Assembly: GCF_000337175.1 (NCBI RefSeq) | Contig: NZ_AOIJ01000057.1 | Coordinates: forward strand, 1 to 64,000 | DNA length: 64,000 nt | DNA from: Natrinema gari JCM 14663 | Lineage (GTDB): Archaea > Halobacteriota > Halobacteria > Halobacteriales > Natrialbaceae | Direction: 5' to 3' | In this document: piece by piece, positions 13,629 through 26,023 of the stretch | Layout: the number at the start of each line of letters is the position of its first letter | Position numbering within the stretch: the stretch's first letter is position 1 | Made by a program: the position numbers and the translations under genes | The notes under the pieces: model-generated | Databases searched by the model: none | What the model was told of the DNA's origin: nothing | The model's input: the letters and a program-made list of their open reading frames with translations, nothing else

Positions 13629-15182
13629 CTACTCGTCGCGGAGTTCGAACTTCTGGACCTTGCCGGTCGTCGTTCGGGGAAGCTCCTGGACGAACTCGAC
13701 TTCGCGGGGGGGTTTGTACTCCGCGAGGTTCGTCAGGCAGTACTGTTTGATATCTTCTGGGGTCGCGTCGGCGTCGGGTGTGGGGACGATAAATGCCTTG
13801 ACGGTCTCCCCGCGGCGGTCGTCCGGAATCCCGACCACTGCGGCGTCGGCGACGTCCTCGTGTTCGAACAGCAACTCCTCGACTTCGCGCGGATAGACGT
13901 TGTAGCCGCCGGTGACGATCATGTGCTTCTCGCGATCAACGATGTAGAAGAAGTCGTCCTCGTCCCAGTAGCCGATGTCTCCGGTGTGGAACCACCGCTT
14001 GCCGTCCGCCTCGGTAAACGCCTCCTCGTTGGCCTCGGGGAGCCCGTAGTACTCCTTCATCACGTTGGGGCCGTGGATGACCAACTCGCCCGTGATCTCG
14101 TGGAGGTCAGCCGCCTCCTCGTCGATCGGTCCCTCCGCGACGCGGGGTACTTCCTCGAAGTGCTCGTCTACGATCTTCGCCTCGACGCCCTCGAGCGGTT
14201 GCCCGATGCTGCCCTTCCGACGCGCGTCGTTCGTGTTGGCGTGGGTGACCGGACTCGTCTCGGTCAGGCCATAGCCCTCGTTGAGTTGGACGTCCCACAG
14301 CTCCTCGAACCGGTCGAGGACCTCGAGCGGGAGACTCGCGCCCCCGGAGTTGGCAAAGCGCAGCGCCTCGAACTCGTACTCGGCGGCATCGGGCTGGTTG
14401 ATCATGTCGTTGAACATCGCGGGAACGGCGAACATGATCGTGATCTCGTCGTCCTCGAGTTGGTCCATGACCGTCGGGGCGTCCCACTCGGGCACGGGGT
14501 AGTAGGTCCCGCCGCTGTACATCGCACCGTTCATGACGACGGACATGCCATAGATGTGGAACAGCGGAAGCGTGCCGATGAGCCGGTCGGACGCTTGGAA
14601 CCCGCCCGGCGGGACGCTGGCGTTGGCCCGCGTCGTAAAGGCCAAATTGTGGTGGGTCAACAGAACGCCCTTCGGCGTGCCGGTCGTCCCCGAGGTGTAC
14701 GGCTGGACCGCGACATCGTCGTCAGCACGCTCGACGATCGCTTTGGTGTCGTCCGCGAGGAAGTCGTCGAACGCGGTGGCACCCTCGACGGCTGCCCCCA
14801 CGCTGATCACCTGTTCGACCGCGGTGTCGTCTTGCACCTCGAGAACGTTGGGGACGAGGTCCGCCAGCGAGACGACCGCTTTCGCCCCGCTGTCGCTCAG
14901 CATGTGGCTGATCTCGCGGGCCTTGTACTGGGGATTCATCGGGACGATGATCCCGCCGGCGCGGAGCGTGCCGTAGAAGGCGGTGACGAACTGCGGCAGG
15001 TTCGGGAGATAGACTCCGACGCGGTCGCCCTCGCCGATGCCGCGGTCCTCGAGCGCCTGTGCGAACTGCCCCGCTCGCTCCCAGAACTCCTCGTAGGTCC
15101 GTTCGGACCCCTGATACGCGATCGCGGCCGAATCGGGGTTCGCTTGCACGGTCTCGCCGACTTCCCTCACGAGATTTGTCAT
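13629..15182 (-). CDS. Acyl-CoA synthetase (AMP-forming ligase)
   Basis: The product has 517 residues of the ANL superfamily. It shows the P-loop-like motif YTSGTTGTPKGVLLTHHN (near residue 165), NEGYGLTETSP (near residue 297), the aspartate motif WFHTGDIGYWDEDDFFYIVDR and the hinge DREKHMIVTGGYNVYPREVEE. Near the C-terminus PRTTTGKVQK holds the adenylation lysine. The start at 15182 (MTNLVREVG) is used; an upstream ATG at 15212 would add ten residues. The enzyme activates a carboxylic acid to its CoA thioester. It follows the TRAP permease by about 100 bp on the same strand, suggesting that the imported acid is its substrate (inference). Substrate chain length cannot be read. Confidence 0.92.
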   Translation of the reverse strand: MTNLVREVGETVQANPDSAAIAYQGSERTYEEFWERAGQFAQALEDRGIGEGDRVGVYLPNLPQFVTAFYGTLRAGGIIVPMNPQYKAREISHMLSDSGAKAVVSLADLVPNVLEVQDDTAVEQVISVGAAVEGATAFDDFLADDTKAIVERADDDVAVQPYTSGTTGTPKGVLLTHHNLAFTTRANASVPPGGFQASDRLIGTLPLFHIYGMSVVMNGAMYSGGTYYPVPEWDAPTVMDQLEDDEITIMFAVPAMFNDMINQPDAAEYEFEALRFANSGGASLPLEVLDRFEELWDVQLNEGYGLTETSPVTHANTNDARRKGSIGQPLEGVEAKIVDEHFEEVPRVAEGPIDEEAADLHEITGELVIHGPNVMKEYYGLPEANEEAFTEADGKRWFHTGDIGYWDEDDFFYIVDREKHMIVTGGYNVYPREVEELLFEHEDVADAAVVGIPDDRRGETVKAFIVPTPDADATPEDIKQYCLTNLAEYKPPREVEFVQELPRTTTGKVQKFELRDE

Positions 15183-15286
15183 ACCTTGTGTATGGTTGTC
15201 TGAGGCCCACAAAAGGGTTGTTACTCGGTAATTACATTTACTTCGGTTGTTCCCGAAACCGGGAGCGATACCCGGTCGCGGAGCGG

Positions 15287-17470
15287 TTAGTCGAGGGTCG
15301 ATGTGTCGGGATGGGGCCCAGATTCGGGGTCGGTCGGTCGCTCATAGCCGACGACGTATCGAGCGTGTGCCAACACGCCGACGATCGCAGCCGCGGCAAC
15401 GATTTGGACCCCGACGTGGACGATCGAGCCGAACATCGCACAGAGCGTGGCAGCGATGTAGAGGCCGCGGGCCGGTGCCGAGAGTTCTCGAGCCCCGTCG
15501 AAACCGATCGTCGCGACAATCAGGCCGACGGTGCCGGCGAGTACCACGGGGAAGGCGATGAGGGTCTCCCGTGACCAGTAGATCAGACTCTCGTTCGCGA
15601 TGAACGCATAGGGAATGACGAATCCGGGAGCGCCGAGTCGAAGCGCCTGTTTACACGAATCGAGGAAGTTCGCGCCCGCGATTCGCGATCCGATGGCGAC
15701 CGAAATCGCGACCGGTGGAGTGATCGCCGACAGCATCGCGAAGTAGAACACGAACATGTGCGTCGCGATCGGTGGTGTTCCGAGCTCGGTGATCGGTTTC
15801 GCGACCAGAATGGCCACGAGGATGTACGCCGCGGGTGTCGGCATCCCCAGCCCGAACAGGATACTGGCGATCATCGCGAGGACCAACACGACGAACAGTC
15901 CCCCGCCGAAGCCGAGCAGACTCACGTCGCCGAGGCTAACGATCGATGTCGCAACGCGGGCCGTCAGTCCCGTCCCCTCGAGCAGTTTGACGATCACGCC
16001 CATGGCCGCGAGGACGCCGACCAGCGGTGCCATGTCGACGCCGCCCTGTTTGAACCCGTCGACGGTCTGCTTGCTCGTCGCGACGAGGTTCCCAAGCAGG
16101 TCGTCGCCCCGTACTTCTCGACCGAGGATTTCGGCTGTCACTTCGTCAGAACCGATGCCGACGACACCGACGACGAAGTTCCGAACGAACATCACGCCGA
16201 CGATCGCGAAGATCGTATTCATGCCTGCTGACAACGGTGTGTACCGCAAATAAACGAGCGTGTACAGGAGGACGCCCATCGGGACCGTGAAGTGGATCCC
16301 TTTGAGGAGGAGTCGCCACCTGAACGACGAGAGGTCGTTCGAGATCCAGCCGAACTTGAGGATCGTGAAATGAACCGCGAGACAGACGCTGAAGTAGAAC
16401 AGCGCCGCCGGAATGATCCCCGCCCGAACGATGTCCAAATACGGGACCTGAACGATGTCAGCCATCAGGAACGCGGCCACGCCCATCACCGGCGGCAGCA
16501 TCTGGCCGCCCGCGGAGGCGACCGCCTCGATCGACGCGGCGATGTCGTCGCTGACGCCCTGATCTTTGATCATCGGAATCGTGAAACTGCCCGTCGTCGC
16601 GGTGTTTGCCGCCGCACTCCCGGTGATCGAGCCCATGATCATACTCGAGATGACGGCGATCTGGACGACGCCGGTCCGGAGGCTCGTCCCGAGTTCCGTC
16701 CCGATCTCGCGGACGAACTCCATCAATCCGAACGCCTTCGCGATCCCGGCGAACATGATGAAGATCGCGACCCACGTCGACCCGATACCCATGAGCGTCT
16801 CGTGATAGACGCCACTGATCCCGATCGCGCCGTTCTCGGCGATCTGTTCCCAGCTTTGTCCCGAGTGCTGGAAGACGCCGAACAGTCGTGGACCGACTGC
16901 AGCATGGGCGTACGCGATCGCCGCGACGGCAACGGCCGCGATCACGGTCCCGAACGCCCGCCGAGTGGTATCGATCGCCAGCGCGATCAGGACGACGCCG
17001 ACGAGGTGATCGGTGGTGGTGTAGCCGAGGATATATGCGTCCTCGTCGAGCCGCGTGAAGTTCGTGTAGACGTGATACATCGTGAGCAACGCCACGACCG
17101 CGAGGGCGAGGGCGGCGTACGGATCGATCCGCTCCCAGGCCCGCCGCACTCGCTCGAGTCCATCGCCGGCGCTTCCGCCGGTCGTCGAGGAGTCCGCTGC
17201 GGCGAAATCACCGTCGGCGTTCTCGTTGCGGAACGTTCTGTGAGCGTAGTCGAGGTAGTACAGCGCGATCCCAATGCCGAAGAAGAGGATCATGTACCGT
17301 GCGTCCCGCTTTATCCATCCTGGTTCCGGGACGAGTCCGCTGAGGGGCCACCCGCCTACGAGGGACACGGCGTACACGACAGTGTATCCCGTTAGGATGA
17401 CCCCCAATCCATACACGAGGAGCCCGAGGGCAACCTCGAATCGCCCACGCTCGGAATATGTATCAGACAT
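15287..17470 (-). CDS. TRAP transporter permease, fused small and large subunits (TAXI type)
   Basis: The product has 727 residues and is almost wholly hydrophobic. An N-terminal set of four to five helices corresponds to the DctQ-like small subunit, and the large DctM-like part follows. The DctM part includes IAKAFGLMEFVREIGTELG, GSITGSAAANTATTGSFTIP and FGLGMPTPAAYILVA, which are typical of the 4TM/12TM fused permeases that work with TAXI binding proteins. Its start lies 8 bp after the TAXI gene stop, so the two form an operon. It should import an organic anion driven by the sodium or proton gradient. The C-terminal stretch after residue 640 holds extra helices seen in other fused permeases. 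The substrate is unknown. Confidence 0.92.
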   Translation of the reverse strand: MSDTYSERGRFEVALGLLVYGLGVILTGYTVVYAVSLVGGWPLSGLVPEPGWIKRDARYMILFFGIGIALYYLDYAHRTFRNENADGDFAAADSSTTGGSAGDGLERVRRAWERIDPYAALALAVVALLTMYHVYTNFTRLDEDAYILGYTTTDHLVGVVLIALAIDTTRRAFGTVIAAVAVAAIAYAHAAVGPRLFGVFQHSGQSWEQIAENGAIGISGVYHETLMGIGSTWVAIFIMFAGIAKAFGLMEFVREIGTELGTSLRTGVVQIAVISSMIMGSITGSAAANTATTGSFTIPMIKDQGVSDDIAASIEAVASAGGQMLPPVMGVAAFLMADIVQVPYLDIVRAGIIPAALFYFSVCLAVHFTILKFGWISNDLSSFRWRLLLKGIHFTVPMGVLLYTLVYLRYTPLSAGMNTIFAIVGVMFVRNFVVGVVGIGSDEVTAEILGREVRGDDLLGNLVATSKQTVDGFKQGGVDMAPLVGVLAAMGVIVKLLEGTGLTARVATSIVSLGDVSLLGFGGGLFVVLVLAMIASILFGLGMPTPAAYILVAILVAKPITELGTPPIATHMFVFYFAMLSAITPPVAISVAIGSRIAGANFLDSCKQALRLGAPGFVIPYAFIANESLIYWSRETLIAFPVVLAGTVGLIVATIGFDGARELSAPARGLYIAATLCAMFGSIVHVGVQIVAAAAIVGVLAHARYVVGYERPTDPESGPHPDTSTLD

Positions 17471-17478
17471 CGGTCCCG

Positions 17479-18552
17479 TTAGTTACCGCCGTCGGCGATG
17501 AAGAACCACGGCAGATCGTAGAAGTGGACGATCTGTGCCATCTCGAAGTCGAGTGCACTGTAGTTGCCAGCCCCGTCTTGGACCTCCTGTGCCGACCAGT
17601 TCTGGATGTACACCATCTCGGCGTCCTCCTGGTCGAGCGCACCGAGGTTGGCCTCGGTTCCCTGGCTGGTCTGGGCCTCGACGAACAGGTCGTCGGTCCC
17701 GTCGTTGACGGCGCTGGCCATCCCCTGGTTGGCGGTGTATGCCGTTGTCGTCGATGTCGATGTCCGCATCCGAACGTTGGTGTCACCGGTGGCTCCGCCG
17801 CTTGCGCTGCCGCCGGCGCGCTCGAACTCGTCGCCCCAGATGCCGATCTCCTCGTAGAAGTCGGCCGCGGCGTCATGGAAGGGCACTCCGTCATACATGT
17901 TTTCGATCCAGAACTCCTCGTCCTCGTAGGTAGCCAGGACACCGTTGTATTCCGCCAGTTCCTGTTTCTGTTCGTACAGCGTCTCGAGGAACGTATAGAC
18001 CGTATCGTACTCGAGGTCGGCCCGGGAGACGAAGTTGTACGCGAAGGTCGGCGCGGGGACCTCGTCGGGGGCGTCGACGTTGTCGATCTGGCCTGTCTCG
18101 GCCGGCTGAATCAGCAGCCGGTCGTCGTCGTTCCAGGCTTGCTCGGTCTCGTCGGTCACATCGAGCACGCGGAGATCGTCGACCGTACTCGCCGTCTGCT
18201 GGAGCCAGCTGGGAACGATCGAGAAGTTCATCAGCGTCCCGACGCCGACATCGAGTTGGTTCTCGTTGATCGCGTTGCCCTGTTCGCCGTAGCTCGTACT
18301 CGCACGATCGTAGCCGTCGGTTGCATGCTCCAGCGCACGCTCGAGTGCCGGAGCGGTTCCCGACCCCGTCGGCGTCGGCGACACCGCCGTATTCTCACCG
18401 ATATCGGAGAGGGTCTCGAGGTTCTGACCGCTACCGCTGTTCGTCTCACCGCCGATACAACCGGCGAGAGCCGTTGTGGCTCCAACACCAGTGGCTGCGA
18501 GGACTGATCTGCGAGTCATGCTCCTATCCGTGAACTTGTGCCTGTTCGCCAT
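17479..18552 (-). CDS. TAXI-type TRAP solute-binding lipoprotein, apparently circularly permuted
   Basis: The product has 357 residues. A Tat-type signal with a lipobox (MTRRSVLAATG...ALAGC, Cys32) predicts a lipid-anchored exported protein. Residues 44-240 resemble the second part of standard TAXI proteins: LETLSDI, then SPTPTGSGTAPAL, then GVPFHDAAADFYEEIG, which normally ends the family. A Gly/Ser-rich linker (about 246-257) comes next. Residues 259-357 resemble the normal first part: VRMRTSTSTTTAYTANQGMA, then EAQTSQGTEANLGAL, then AEMVYIQNWSAQEV, ending at FYDLPWFFIADGGN. The order is therefore swapped. The start at 18552 sits about 28 bp after a TATA-like element; 18519 would also give a complete signal. 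It is coupled to the permease gene 8 bp downstream. Confidence 0.85.
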   Translation of the reverse strand: MANRHKFTDRSMTRRSVLAATGVGATTALAGCIGGETNSGSGQNLETLSDIGENTAVSPTPTGSGTAPALERALEHATDGYDRASTSYGEQGNAINENQLDVGVGTLMNFSIVPSWLQQTASTVDDLRVLDVTDETEQAWNDDDRLLIQPAETGQIDNVDAPDEVPAPTFAYNFVSRADLEYDTVYTFLETLYEQKQELAEYNGVLATYEDEEFWIENMYDGVPFHDAAADFYEEIGIWGDEFERAGGSASGGATGDTNVRMRTSTSTTTAYTANQGMASAVNDGTDDLFVEAQTSQGTEANLGALDQEDAEMVYIQNWSAQEVQDGAGNYSALDFEMAQIVHFYDLPWFFIADGGN

Positions 18553-18573
18553 GCCACATTCCTTCATAGTTTC

Positions 18574-18796: not shown

Positions 18797-19960
18797 ATGC
18801 TGGATTTCGTTCAGCTCGAGGCAGACCTCGGCCAAGAAGAGCGGATGATCCGGGACACGGCCCGCGAATTCGTCAACGAACACGTCAAGCCCGACATCGG
18901 CGAGCATTTCGAACAGGGGACGTTCCCCAAGGAACTCATTCCGAAGATGGGTGAGCTCGGCTTCTACGCCCCCAATCTCGAGGGCTATGGCTCGCCGAAC
19001 GTCTCGGAGACGGCCTACGGCCTGTTGATGCAGGAACTCGAGGCGGGCGACTCGGGGCTGCGATCGATGGCGTCGGTGCAGGGTGCGCTCGTCATGTACC
19101 CGATCCACGCCTACGGGAGCGAGGAACAGAAAGCGGAGTGGCTGCCGGAGATGGGCCGCGGCGAGGCGATCGGCTGTTTCGGCCTCACCGAACCCGAACA
19201 CGGCTCGAACCCGTCGGCGATGGAGACCCGCGCCGAGCGTGACGGCGACGGCTACGTCCTGAACGGCTCGAAGACGTGGATTACGAACTCGCCGATCGCC
19301 GACGTTGCGATCGTCTGGGCCCGCGACAAATCGACCGCGGACGATCCCGTTCGCGGGTTCCTCGTCGAAACCGACCGCGACGGCGTCACGACCAACAAGA
19401 TCGACGACAAGCTCTCGCTGCGGGCCTCGATCACGGGCGAAATCGGACTGAACGACGTCCACGTGCCCGAGGAGAACGTCCTCCCGGGCGTCGAGGGGAT
19501 GAAGGGGCCGCTGTCCTGTCTCACGCAGGCTCGCTACGGCATCGCCTGGGGTGCGGTCGGCGCGGCCCGGGACTGCTTCGAGGAGGCCCGCCAGTACGCG
19601 ACGGATCGCGACCAGTTCGGCGGCCCGATCGGTCGGTTCCAGCTCCAGCAGCGCAAGCTCGCGGAGATGGGGACCCAGATCACGCTGGCGCAACTGCTGG
19701 CCCACCGACTCGCCGAACTCAAAGAGCGCGGTGAGATGCGACCACAGCACGTCTCGATGTCGAAGCGAAACAACGTGCGGATGGCCCGGAACCAGGCCCG
19801 GATCGCCCGGGAAATGCTCGGCGGGAACGGTATCACGACGGACTACTCGCCGATGCGTCACATGTCCAACATGGAGACGGTCTACACCTACGAGGGCACC
19901 CACGACATTCATACGCTCGTTCTCGGCGAGGAGTTCACCGGCATCCCCGCCTACCGGTAA
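18797..19960 (+). CDS. Acyl-CoA dehydrogenase of the glutaryl-CoA dehydrogenase group
   Basis: The product has 387 residues. It shows GLRSMASVQGALVMYPI (near residue 90), where the Arg-Ser and SVQ positions match the substrate-binding loop of glutaryl-CoA dehydrogenases. FGLTEPEHGSNPSAMETRA and LNGSKTWITNSPIAD follow, and the C-terminus has METVYTYEGTHDIHTLVLG with the expected catalytic Glu, then EEFTGIPAYR. These are closer to glutaryl-CoA dehydrogenase than to the short-chain enzyme at 12357-13496. The reaction would be oxidation of glutaryl-CoA, with decarboxylation to crotonyl-CoA if it is a true member. It is divergent from the TRAP operon and next to an IclR gene, suggesting dicarboxylate or aromatic/lysine-type catabolism (inference). 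Confidence 0.85.
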   Translation: MLDFVQLEADLGQEERMIRDTAREFVNEHVKPDIGEHFEQGTFPKELIPKMGELGFYAPNLEGYGSPNVSETAYGLLMQELEAGDSGLRSMASVQGALVMYPIHAYGSEEQKAEWLPEMGRGEAIGCFGLTEPEHGSNPSAMETRAERDGDGYVLNGSKTWITNSPIADVAIVWARDKSTADDPVRGFLVETDRDGVTTNKIDDKLSLRASITGEIGLNDVHVPEENVLPGVEGMKGPLSCLTQARYGIAWGAVGAARDCFEEARQYATDRDQFGGPIGRFQLQQRKLAEMGTQITLAQLLAHRLAELKERGEMRPQHVSMSKRNNVRMARNQARIAREMLGGNGITTDYSPMRHMSNMETVYTYEGTHDIHTLVLGEEFTGIPAYR

Positions 19961-20136
19961 CCACCGACCGTTCGAACCCCTTTCCGCTTCTCGATCGCGT
20001 CCGTCTTCCGCACTCAGCGCCCAGCACGTCCGCTCGCCCCACCGGGCCGAGTCGAATCCGGAACGCCCGTTCCGCTCGGTGACATCCGAATCCCAGTATC
20101 CGGAACATTGATTGCGACGTGCGAAGAGTGTCGCGT

Positions 20137-20901
20137 ATGGGTACGGATGGGGACGAGACCGGCGGAACGGGCGTCTCGACGACGCGGAAAACGTTTGCAC
20201 TCCTCGAGGCGCTCAAAGACGAAGAGGGCGTCACGATCGCGGCGCTCACCGAGCGGACGGACCTCCCAAAGAGCACCGTCTACCGTCACCTCCAGACGCT
20301 GACCGATCTGGGGTACGTGATCGAGCGCGACGGGGCGTACTACGTCGGTTTCCGCTTCGTCGAACTCGGCGAGCAAGCCCGCTCCCGGAAAGTGGGATAC
20401 ACGGCGGCCAAGCGAGCCGTGTTCGAACTCGGTCAGGAGACGGACGAACGAGCGGTGTTCATCGTCGAAGAGGCCAGCGAGGCCGTCTACGTCCATCGCT
20501 ACGGTAGCCTCTCGAACACGATGATCGGCCACCGGCGGCCGCTGCACTCGATGGCATCGGGCAAAGTCATTCTCGCAGAGTGGGACGACGCCGCGGTCGC
20601 CGACTACATCGACGACATCGGCCTCGAGACGATCACGCCGAACACGATCACCGATCCCGACGCGCTGTTCGACGAACTCGAGCGAATCCGCGGTCGGGGA
20701 TACGGGGTAAACAATCAGGAACACATGGAAGGGCTTCGCGGGGTTGCCGTCCCGGTCTATACGCCCGACGACGACTTCCTCGGGTCGCTGGCCGTCTTCG
20801 GACCGACCAGTCGATTCAGCGACGACTACGTCCACGACGAACTTCCGACGCGACTGCGGAACAAAGCCGGCGAGATCAAGGTGACCCTCGCCTACGGCTA
20901 A
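20137..20901 (+). CDS. IclR-family transcriptional regulator
   Basis: The product has 254 residues. The N-terminal winged helix runs over about residues 14-75: TTRKTFALLEALKDEEGVTI, then TDLPKSTVYRHLQTLTDLGYV. The C-terminal IclR effector domain includes GHRRPLHSMASGKVILA, GYGVNNQEHMEGLRGVAVPV and LGSLAVFGPTSRF. The ATG at 20137 is preferred to a GTG at 20119. IclR proteins usually control adjacent catabolic genes in response to a small organic acid, so the glutaryl-CoA-type dehydrogenase and the TRAP operon are the likely targets (inference). Confidence 0.92.
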   Translation: MGTDGDETGGTGVSTTRKTFALLEALKDEEGVTIAALTERTDLPKSTVYRHLQTLTDLGYVIERDGAYYVGFRFVELGEQARSRKVGYTAAKRAVFELGQETDERAVFIVEEASEAVYVHRYGSLSNTMIGHRRPLHSMASGKVILAEWDDAAVADYIDDIGLETITPNTITDPDALFDELERIRGRGYGVNNQEHMEGLRGVAVPVYTPDDDFLGSLAVFGPTSRFSDDYVHDELPTRLRNKAGEIKVTLAYG

Positions 20902-21404
20902 CCGGCCCGCGAGTATCGGTCGCGGCCATCCTCGTCCAGCCGAGCGTTTCACCGACCGAAACGCGGACGGCGAAAACCGATCGCCCAGGTCGATGGATGC
21001 TCGTCCCACGGCGCTTCTTTTGCCGCGCGGAACCTCTGTTCCAGAATACGGCCGAGCGGTTTCGCATACTGGAATAGCGTTTCATACTGGAACGTTGTTT
21101 CCTCAATTCTCGTCCGCGCGTAACGGCGCAGTCGATTCCGAGCCACCGGCCGTGTTTCCCCGTCGAGATCCGTGCTCAACTGCCTATCTGCAGTGTATGT
21201 CCGGTACTTGTCTCGAGATCCAGTCACCGTTCTCGGAACAGTGTTCCGCTCCCATTCCAGGAGGGCTAATTACCACAAAATATTACGATTCGATCCGTTA
21301 GTTGGGGTGTGAAGCTCGGCGACCGATCGACTCGGCTATCCGGACCCGTCCCCTCGACCGGACCCGACCGAGGGTTTATGAGTCAACCCGCGGCCAACGG
21401 TGGT
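20902..21404. other. Intergenic interval, nothing supported
   Basis: About 500 bp with no supported gene. The patch 21260-21305 is A+T-rich (CACAAAATATTACG) and could hold a promoter. Confidence 0.45.
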
Positions 21405-21863
21405 ATGTCGGATCATCTCCGACGATCGCGACGGATAGTTCTCCGAACAGTCGGTGCCCTGGGTACGGGAGCGGTCACCGCAGTGACGACTGCCGGCGTG
21501 ACATCCGGACAGTCCGCCGACCGACCCGATCACGCGACGACCCCGAGACGTGGGCGACCACGCTCTCGAGGGGCGTCATCGTCGGCCGATGGCGGGATCG
21601 GCGATCGCCTCGATGGCACCGATCTGTACATCGGTGTCGTCGACCGCATCGTTGACGGGGAGCACGTCGTCCTCCTGTTGGAAGACGGCGAATCGGTCGT
21701 CGAGCAACTCGTGCTACCGGTCGACCGCTTCGCTACTATCGCGCCGGACGACATCCTGCTGGCTGTCGCTACGGACGGTCAGTTGCATGCGTCCCGACGC
21801 GTTCCCTCGAAACCGAACGGGTGTCCCGATCCGGATTTCCAACGGCTCCCGTCCGACGGGTGA
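21405..21863 (+). CDS. Exported DUF3006-like protein
   Basis: The product has 152 residues from the ATG at 21405. The N-terminus (RRSRRIVLRTVGALGTGAVT) looks like a twin-arginine signal, followed by a low-complexity linker. Near residue 75 onward, LYIGVVDRIVDGEHVVLLLEDGESVVEQLVLP then APDDILLAV fits the pattern of DUF3006 domains, small beta-rich domains typically opening with VDRIE-G. The function is unknown. A start at 21378 is also possible and would place the arginines further in. It stands alone, with a decayed palindromic repeat just downstream. Confidence 0.65.
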   Translation: MSDHLRRSRRIVLRTVGALGTGAVTAVTTAGVTSGQSADRPDHATTPRRGRPRSRGASSSADGGIGDRLDGTDLYIGVVDRIVDGEHVVLLLEDGESVVEQLVLPVDRFATIAPDDILLAVATDGQLHASRRVPSKPNGCPDPDFQRLPSDG

Positions 21864-24379: not shown

Positions 24380-26023
24380 ATGGACGATACGACCCGCGTC
24401 GAGTGGCGCGAGTGGGGACGGGACGCCTTCGACGAGGCCGCGGCGGCTGACGTTCCCGTCTTGCTCTCGCTGACCGCGACGTGGTGCGATCACTGCCACG
24501 AGATGGACGCGGAAACCTACGCCGAGCCCCGTATCGCGGCCAACGTCAACGACAGTTTCGTCCCGGTACGGGTCGATGTGGACCGGTACCCGCGCGTTCG
24601 CGACCGATACAATATGGGTGGTTTTCCGTCGACGGTCTTTCTCGCACCCGACGGCGCGGTCCTGACCGGTGCGGGCTATCTCGGTCCCGACGGGATGCGA
24701 CAGGTCCTCGACAGCGTCCGAACCATGTGGGACACGAAAGGCGACGGTGCAGCGCGCATCCCTCGACCGCTCCGCGAGGACAACCCGCCGGCCGGTGAGG
24801 TAACGGCCGACATCGAGTCGACCATGCTCGGCCAACTCTCGGAAAGCTATGACGAGACCGCGGGCGGCTGGGGTCAACACCCCAAGTTCCCGCTGCCCGA
24901 CGCCCTCGAGTTCGCGCTCAAACGGGACCGCGAAATGGCGCTGCGATCGTACGACGCGGTCGGTGCGAACCTGCTAGACGAGTACGACGGCGGCTTCTAT
25001 CGGTTCGCAACCGACCGCGACTGGGCCGGGCTCCAACGCGAGAAGCTCTTGGACTCGAACGGCGCGCTCGTGCGTGCGTTCGCCAACGCCTACCTTCACA
25101 CCGGAACGGACGAGTACCGCGAGCCCGCCGATCGCACGATCGACTTCCTCACGACGACGCTGTGGAACGCCGAGGCCGACGCCTTCGCGAACAGTCAGGC
25201 TCCCGGCGAAGACGATGCCCACAGCCTCGACGCGACCGACCGAGCGGCCGCCGACGAGCCGCCGGTCGACGACGGCGTCTTCGCGGGTTCGAACTCGCTG
25301 GCGATCGACGGACTGCTCACTTATTACGCCTACACCGATGACGACCGGGCCCGCCGGTACGCCGAGCGCGCGCTCGCGACCCTCCGGGCGGACCTGCTCG
25401 AGGACGGCGTCGTCCGTCACGCACGCGAGCAGGCGGTCGAACGCGACGCCGACGACGCGGTCCCGCTCCTCGCGAACCAGGCCCGCGTGCTGGCGGCGCT
25501 GACGACGGCCGCCAGTACCATCGAGACCGCTGTCCTCGACGATGCGACGGCTGTCGCGGAAACGACGATCGACCGACTCCACGACGAGGACTCGTTCCTC
25601 GACGGTCCCGCCGAAGGCGTCGGTCTATGCGACCAGCCGCTCCGGCCACTGGACTCGAACGTCGCGTTCGCGGATGCGCTGATCGATCTGGCCGCCCTCA
25701 CCGGGAACGACCGCTACCGCGAGTTCGCCCGGGAGACCCTCGAGGCATTCGCGGGGGCAAGCGACCGGTTTACCGTTCAGGTCGCTCGCTACGCGACGGC
25801 CGCGTCCCGACTGCTCGAGGGGCCGCTGGTGATCAGGGTCGCCGCCGCGCCCGGAACGGACCTCCACCGTGCGGCGCTCCGAGTCGCGGACCACGAAAAG
25901 GTCGTCGTCCCCGATGCCGATCTCGCGGCTGGAACGGCGCGAGCCGAACGGGGCGACCGCCTGTCGGCGGCTGCCGAAACTCCGGGCGAGTTGAGCGAAC
26001 GCGTCCAGTCCCTTCTCGACTGA
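24380..26023 (+). CDS. Thioredoxin-fold DUF255 protein (SSP411/YyaL-like)
   Basis: The product has 547 residues. A DsbH-like thioredoxin domain occupies about the first 120 residues, with TATWCDHCHEMDAETY near residue 33 giving a CxxC pair (C36, C39). RYNMGGFPSTVFLAPDG carries the conserved cis-Pro region. A long alpha-helical region follows with GQHPKFPLPDALEFAL, LLDEYDGGFYRFATDRDW and GVFAGSNSLAIDGLL, resembling the six-hairpin glycosidase-like part of the family. The usual N-terminal NRL..E.SPYLLQH signature is missing and the protein is shorter than the usual ~700 residues, so this is a compact variant. The function is unproved; thiol-disulfide exchange is plausible. Confidence 0.88.
   Translation: MDDTTRVEWREWGRDAFDEAAAADVPVLLSLTATWCDHCHEMDAETYAEPRIAANVNDSFVPVRVDVDRYPRVRDRYNMGGFPSTVFLAPDGAVLTGAGYLGPDGMRQVLDSVRTMWDTKGDGAARIPRPLREDNPPAGEVTADIESTMLGQLSESYDETAGGWGQHPKFPLPDALEFALKRDREMALRSYDAVGANLLDEYDGGFYRFATDRDWAGLQREKLLDSNGALVRAFANAYLHTGTDEYREPADRTIDFLTTTLWNAEADAFANSQAPGEDDAHSLDATDRAAADEPPVDDGVFAGSNSLAIDGLLTYYAYTDDDRARRYAERALATLRADLLEDGVVRHAREQAVERDADDAVPLLANQARVLAALTTAASTIETAVLDDATAVAETTIDRLHDEDSFLDGPAEGVGLCDQPLRPLDSNVAFADALIDLAALTGNDRYREFARETLEAFAGASDRFTVQVARYATAASRLLEGPLVIRVAAAPGTDLHRAALRVADHEKVVVPDADLAAGTARAERGDRLSAAAETPGELSERVQSLLD

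Follow-up and report, generated by a model that had tools for sequence, protein, structure and literature searches.

Circularly permuted TAXI-type solute-binding proteins of TRAP importers in haloarchaea

The solute-binding protein (SBP) gene at positions 17479-18567 (minus strand) of the 64,000-nucleotide stretch of Natrinema gari JCM 14663 DNA analyzed here (the window) most likely encodes a functional, lipid-anchored TAXI-type SBP of a TRAP importer that is a natural circular permutant, in a family where permuted orders arose at least three times (probability about 0.93). Every archaeal TRAP binding protein is of the TAXI type, a family with frequent lipoprotein members; permutation goes unmentioned in both papers describing them (PMC11574862, PMC12344293). 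The original prediction had read the window protein as circularly permuted from its sequence. The present analysis supports that reading and adds two more independent permutations with a different breakpoint, which had been missed.

Segment order of the window protein

The 362-residue product is a Tat lipoprotein with twin arginines at residues 19-20 and, as predicted, an intact lipobox (ALAGC, Cys37). This length corresponds to the ATG at 18567; the start originally read, at 18552, is a possible alternative, and the stop codon occupies 17479-17481. For comparison, we named the ordinary TAXI order A-B-C, where A runs through the first half of domain 1 as far as the hinge strand, B opens domain 2 and carries the GSGT motif, and C is the remainder, ending GVPFHPAAADFYEE.G. 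The window protein has the order B-C-A instead of A-B-C.

On the minus strand, the Tat signal peptide and lipobox (residues 1-36, positions 18460-18567; lipid-bearing Cys at residue 37), recognized by sequence reading, are followed by a Gly/Ser-rich linker, CIGGETNSGSGQN (residues 37-49, 18421-18459), delimited with a junction table. Segment B with the SPTPTGSGTAPAL motif (residues 49-86, 18310-18423), which in ordinary TAXI proteins comes after A, was assigned by segment profiles and by the PF16868 match that begins at model position 101. Segment C (residues 87-252, 17812-18309) comprises the rest of domain 2 and what was the C-terminal part of domain 1 and ends in GVPFHDAAADFYEEIGIWGDEFERAG, with the PF16868 match running to model position 289 and a match in the PDB profile search. 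The joining linker GGSASGGATGDT (residues 251-262, 17782-17817), also taken from the junction table, leads from the old C-terminus to the old post-lipobox Gly/Ser linker. Segment A (residues 263-358, 17494-17781), formerly the N-terminal half of domain 1, corresponds to PF16868 positions 3-79 and to residues 26-87 of the 8u79 chain in the PDB profile search and ends in the hinge strand HFYDLPWFFIA; the new C-terminus, DGGN plus the stop codon (17479-17493, sequence reading), lies at the hinge. Read from N to C, GSGTAPAL and GVPFHDAAADFYEEIG precede the linker GGSASGGATGD and the lobe-1-like part ending FYDLPWFFIADGGN, exactly the order originally claimed.

In VcGluP, domain 1 is formed by residues 29-115 and 268-328, and the hinges by residues 116-131 and 255-267 (PMC11574862). 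In these terms, a B-C-A chain begins with domain 2 and continues with the second half of domain 1 before its first half. The predicted swap stands with a small correction: the GVPLHPGA ending, which the original prediction did not count in the lobe-1 segment, also belongs to domain 1 in three dimensions.

The PF16868 model matches the window protein twice in swapped order, the outcome the original prediction had anticipated: residues 48-242 align with model positions 101-289 (E 1.8e-14) and residues 269-341 with positions 3-79 (E 4.5e-4). The closest ordinary orthologue, L025, yields a single collinear match (54-340 to 2-289). The halves are likewise swapped in the TIGR02122 alignment, and a family profile compared with PDB sequences matched the TAXI chains 8u79 and 1us4 significantly in two stretches, again in swapped order. 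With both halves matched, the PF16868 score of 69.2 bits (cut-off 27) identifies the protein as a TAXI homologue; its TIGR02122 score of 57.4 falls below the curated cut-off of 84.35, as one would expect of two halves that no collinear alignment can join. Ordinary orthologues at the same locus are 77% identical in segment A (97 aa, E 2e-50), 82% in B and 70% in C (E 2e-86), with the order swapped. The segment swap is far beyond chance. The collinear arrangement of domain 1a, domain 2 and domain 1b is absent, both parts are homologous to one protein and stand in swapped order, and the old termini are joined. Since the order is swapped, we classify the protein as a circularly permuted TAXI variant rather than an ordinary member.

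Distribution of the three cyclic orders

Segment profiles run over the fetched loci revealed three cyclic orders, A-B-C, B-C-A and C-A-B, and no others, with similar signal peptides ahead of all three. Mapped on VcGluP, the chain is opened at the first hinge in B-C-A and in a domain 2 loop in C-A-B. As the original prediction had suggested might be found among haloarchaeal homologues, the permutation of the window protein forms a clade: B-C-A occurs in 10 species, made up of Natrinema-genus genomes (the window genome, Natrinema pallidum, thermotolerans, versiforme and mahii among them) and Natrialba taiwanensis. The C-A-B order was seen in five Natrialbaceae genomes, among them Natrarchaeobaculum sulfurireducens, in which two strains have it and the AArc1 copy lies on a complete plasmid, and in one genome outside this family, G387, a single-contig genome of another family that encodes protein L098 (G387:C1:508796-509383 / L115:4383-5510). 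Permuted copies were found in a total of 16 separate genomes. A junction profile in which the old C-terminus is joined to the old N-terminus (A1), covering this TAXI subfamily rather than all haloarchaeal TAXI proteins, was scanned over overlapping sets of 391 Halobacteria genomes, 146 genomes of the family of G387 and 391 of the order; among the matches listed, full-length junction matches occur only in permuted genes. With dN/dS values of 0.10-0.22 for B-C-A and 0.06-0.19 among the five C-A-B proteins, both permuted groups are under constraint.

Family models and automatic annotation mis-score permuted proteins. The C-A-B protein WP_117362453.1 (L141:4851-5954, NZ_CP024046.1) is named only 'substrate-binding domain-containing protein' in RefSeq, and a close C-A-B relative of it scores under the TIGR02122 cut-off; the vague name fits B-C-A and C-A-B scores under this cut-off, as permutation predicts. 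L098 lies narrowly above it (87.8).

Predicted fold

AlphaFold2, provided with permuted relatives and fragments of ordinary relatives, confidently predicted a bilobed SBP fold for the window protein (pLDDT 91.2, pTM 0.87) and gave a model of the C-A-B protein L026 with pLDDT 93.4 and pTM 0.88. The order of helices and strands in the two models is the same after rotation. The V. cholerae TAXI protein 9ibp is the top VIA-align match of the window model (Z 11.0, rmsd 3.0, 197 residues), as would be expected from the original prediction, with the alignment spanning only model residues 11-215 and chain residues 145-351 because a chain-order aligner can do no more with a permuted chain. Foldseek in sequence order placed unrelated binding proteins and related folds on top (TM about 0.4), and no TAXI chain was among the matches listed by VIA-align for the C-A-B model. 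Such sequential comparisons say little here, since both programs align residues in chain order and a two-lobed fold is pseudo-symmetric.

Route of origin

At the C-A joint, the old C-terminal FERAD runs into the Gly/Ser stretch situated in ordinary proteins between lipobox and domain. The joint of L023, ADGSSSGSGGSGETTV, resembles the N-terminal linker of the ordinary L025 (...GDGGSGETTV), and the joining linker in L007 and L023, ADGSS.SGGSGETTV, matches the ...DGGSGETTV of L025. A similar Gly/Ser stretch also still follows the lipobox in the permuted proteins. A linker of this kind at both sites is what one would expect if the gene was duplicated in tandem, the copies were fused and the product was trimmed behind a signal peptide that was kept. 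Duplication-and-trimming and fission-fusion are the general models for circular permutation (PMC3320104), and the sequences point to the former as the probable mutational path. The SBP gene would have been duplicated in tandem and in frame and the copies fused; trimming behind the retained signal peptide would then have left the old C-terminus tied through the Gly/Ser linker to the old N-terminus, and opening of new termini at the first hinge crossing would have produced B-C-A. Tandem duplication does occur at the level of the locus, as one genome carries two tandem SBP-permease units of this subfamily, both of ordinary order (L050:3256-7557). Among the genomes scanned, no duplicated A-B-C-A-B-C intermediate survives, and a tblastn search of the regions flanking permuted genes, with all family proteins as queries, found only the gene itself and no leftover duplicate pieces.

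Splitting of the gene in two and rejoining of the parts in swapped order is compatible with the sequences, but we consider this fission-fusion route distinctly less likely: no split two-gene forms were seen, whereas both the linker found behind the lipobox as well as at the C-A joint and the tandem units in L050 are as expected from duplication.

Independent origins of the permuted orders

To place the permuted proteins among their relatives, a tree was built from 69 proteins whose segments had first been rearranged into one common order. In this tree, B-C-A forms one clade (support 100/98) adjoining ordinary proteins, the five Natrialbaceae C-A-B proteins are sister to the ordinary-order L133 (L133:3213-4370), and L098 is placed elsewhere. 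The AU test rejected both a single C-A-B clade (p 4.6e-5) and a joint clade of B-C-A and the five C-A-B proteins (p 1.5e-12). A separate permease tree agrees, rejecting the same two groupings with p 2.6e-8 and p 1.8e-6, respectively. The junctions are also informative: the five C-A-B proteins retain the native A-B junction ITNNMDLETLSDI and the B-C-A proteins retain the native B-C junction TDGYDR, so that neither order is simply derived from the other. Segments A and C of L098 are 74% identical to ordinary proteins and about 53% to other C-A-B proteins; these identities, together with the AU tests, rule out horizontal spread of a C-A-B gene to G387. We conclude that there were at least three independent circular permutations, one to B-C-A and two to C-A-B at one loop.

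A single ancestral permutation, or a shared duplicated intermediate resolved in two ways, would agree with the confinement of all permuted proteins to one haloarchaeal subfamily, and a smaller first tree did not reject B-C-A and C-A-B as one clade (AU p 0.25); the joint clade was rejected only after the addition of L133, which has ordinary order and a long branch, and of other rows. Such a common origin is nevertheless improbable given that every permuted clade is nearest to ordinary-order proteins, that B-C-A and C-A-B keep different native junctions, and that L098 is closer to ordinary than to other C-A-B proteins, and the AU tests on the final SBP and permease trees reject it.

The two C-A-B events open the same loop, at ...ALD/YER and ...VFD/YER, and L133, the ordinary-order sister of the five C-A-B proteins, has a short insertion in this loop. 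It is possible that the loop, with the L133 insertion as a sign of its tolerance, is permissive.

Possible causes of fixation

Why permuted forms were fixed at least three times can be approached in two ways. Selection is a speculative and rather unlikely explanation, under which moving the N-terminal anchor from domain 1 to the hinge or to domain 2 might alter docking on the permease or release from it, while a permissive loop after the GSGT helix would ease re-opening. If correct, it would account for the independent fixation of permuted forms on three or more occasions in a single archaeal subfamily, twice at the same loop. Neutral tolerance by a permissive two-lobed fold with adjacent termini remains the alternative. 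The ordinary relatives whose sequences were read are lipoproteins too, so that tethering alone does not set the permuted proteins apart.

Natural circular permutations are usually recognized between distant relatives, where cause and effect are inseparable. Here, ordinary and permuted orthologues that are about 70% identical occupy the same operon in sister species, and at least three events provide a natural experiment. Neutrality or advantage of permutation in membrane-tethered binding proteins, an idea raised for TpMglB-2 (PMC4990184), thereby becomes testable, and the naturally tolerated breakpoints and linkers could be used in biosensor design.

Relation to known systems

Ordinary TAXI SBPs (TIGR02122 / PF16868; VcGluP 8s4j, T. 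thermophilus 1us4/1us5/8u79, V. cholerae 9ibp) resemble the window protein in their segments, predicted bilobed fold, common lipoprotein type and adjacent fused permease but differ from it in cyclic chain order, and the window protein misses the TIGR02122 cut-off. The elongated TAXI-GltS protein BP0403 is likewise a TAXI lipoprotein of non-standard architecture; it differs in having extra N-terminal domains and a GltS partner, and permutation is unmentioned in its description (PMC12344293).

One natural permuted binding protein that is a lipoprotein has been published, TpMglB-2 (Tp0684) of Treponema pallidum, a 'Type Ic / Cluster Bc' glucose-binding protein (PDB 5JX2). Like the protein of the window, it is lipid-anchored and circularly permuted, and it still binds its ligand; its authors suggest that permutation may aid membrane anchoring (PMC4990184). 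It is, however, an unrelated type I ABC-transporter binding protein with a sugar ligand, and its permuted part has only 13% identity to the canonical one, an extra crossover and a large insertion; the text consulted describes neither an ordinary same-operon orthologue nor repeated independent events (PMC4990184). The window protein does not belong to Type Ic / Cluster Bc, which is defined by an MglB-homologous type I fold: its sequence homology is to TAXI, and no MglB-type family is among its Pfam and PDB sequence matches.

Saposin/swaposin, transhydrogenases and DNA methyltransferases have in common with the present case the duplication-trimming or fission-fusion models (PMC3320104), but here all three cyclic orders exist as recent relatives, and of the three permuted groups two share a locus. 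We found no report in the open-access literature searched of circular permutation in TAXI/TRAP proteins or of repeated permutation events; within that literature this is the first TAXI/TRAP permutation found, and the first case in which permutation recurred recently alongside orthologues of ordinary order. The original prediction knew of no described permuted TAXI protein, and none turned up in that literature, although TpMglB-2 sets a precedent for permuted binding proteins as such (PMC4990184).

Genomic context and function

The gene downstream of the SBP (15287-17470, minus strand) encodes an ordinary fused TRAP permease (DctM / TRAP_fused) of 727 residues (TIGR02123 396 bits over a cut-off of 320.65; PF06808). 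The normal fused permease of the original prediction is present; the two genes are adjacent and do not overlap, the permease starting 8 nt past the SBP stop, in an operon with a single fused permease. Further downstream is a conserved AMP-forming acyl-CoA ligase (13629-15212, minus strand). The divergent conserved neighbor (18797-19960, plus strand) encodes a glutaryl-CoA-dehydrogenase-like enzyme, identified by solved relatives and synteny: its best solved relatives are nearly all glutaryl-CoA dehydrogenases (E 1e-119 to 1e-129), compared with 1e-79 for plant acyl-CoA oxidase 4 and 1e-66 for other acyl-CoA dehydrogenases. An IclR-family regulator (20119-20901, plus strand), also belonging to the conserved locus, lies beyond.

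The window and most relatives of all three orders have this layout, with divergent glutaryl-CoA dehydrogenase, SBP, fused permease and CoA ligase, and IclR beyond. A-B-C, B-C-A and the five Natrialbaceae C-A-B genes have common neighbors (a divergent glutaryl-CoA dehydrogenase or IclR gene, and the permease and CoA ligase genes on the downstream side), which indicates that the permuted genes are mostly orthologous replacements and not odd paralogues. L098 is flanked by a luciferase-like monooxygenase and by the permease followed by a thiamine-pyrophosphate enzyme, with no glutaryl-CoA dehydrogenase among these neighbors. Given the glutaryl-CoA dehydrogenase neighbor and the CoA ligase after the permease, a glutarate-like dicarboxylate is a plausible, if tentative, substrate.

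The permuted SBP very probably retains the transport function. It would adopt the two-domain flytrap fold of its ordinary relatives, capture its ligand between the two domains and pass it to the adjacent fused permease, while the lipid-anchored N-terminus would now lead into the hinge and domain 2 instead of domain 1. That it has become a sensor or decoy binding protein no longer engaged in transport is very improbable: it is the sole close copy in its genome, an intact permease begins 8 nt downstream, and no ordinary copy was seen beside the B-C-A gene at the locus in B-C-A species. Because the window genome is a draft of 88 contigs, one might suspect an error of assembly or annotation, or two partial genes brought together by chance. 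This is ruled out by permuted copies in 16 separate genomes, with B-C-A intact in 10 species including single-contig assemblies, C-A-B found both on a complete plasmid and in a genome assembled as one contig, and dN/dS far under 1.

Elsewhere in the window, a 184-aa open reading frame at 21309-21863 has a hydrophobic Tat-like N-terminus and is without an NCBIfam match, and positions 24380-26023 encode an ordinary thioredoxin-like DUF255 (Thioredox_DsbH) protein.
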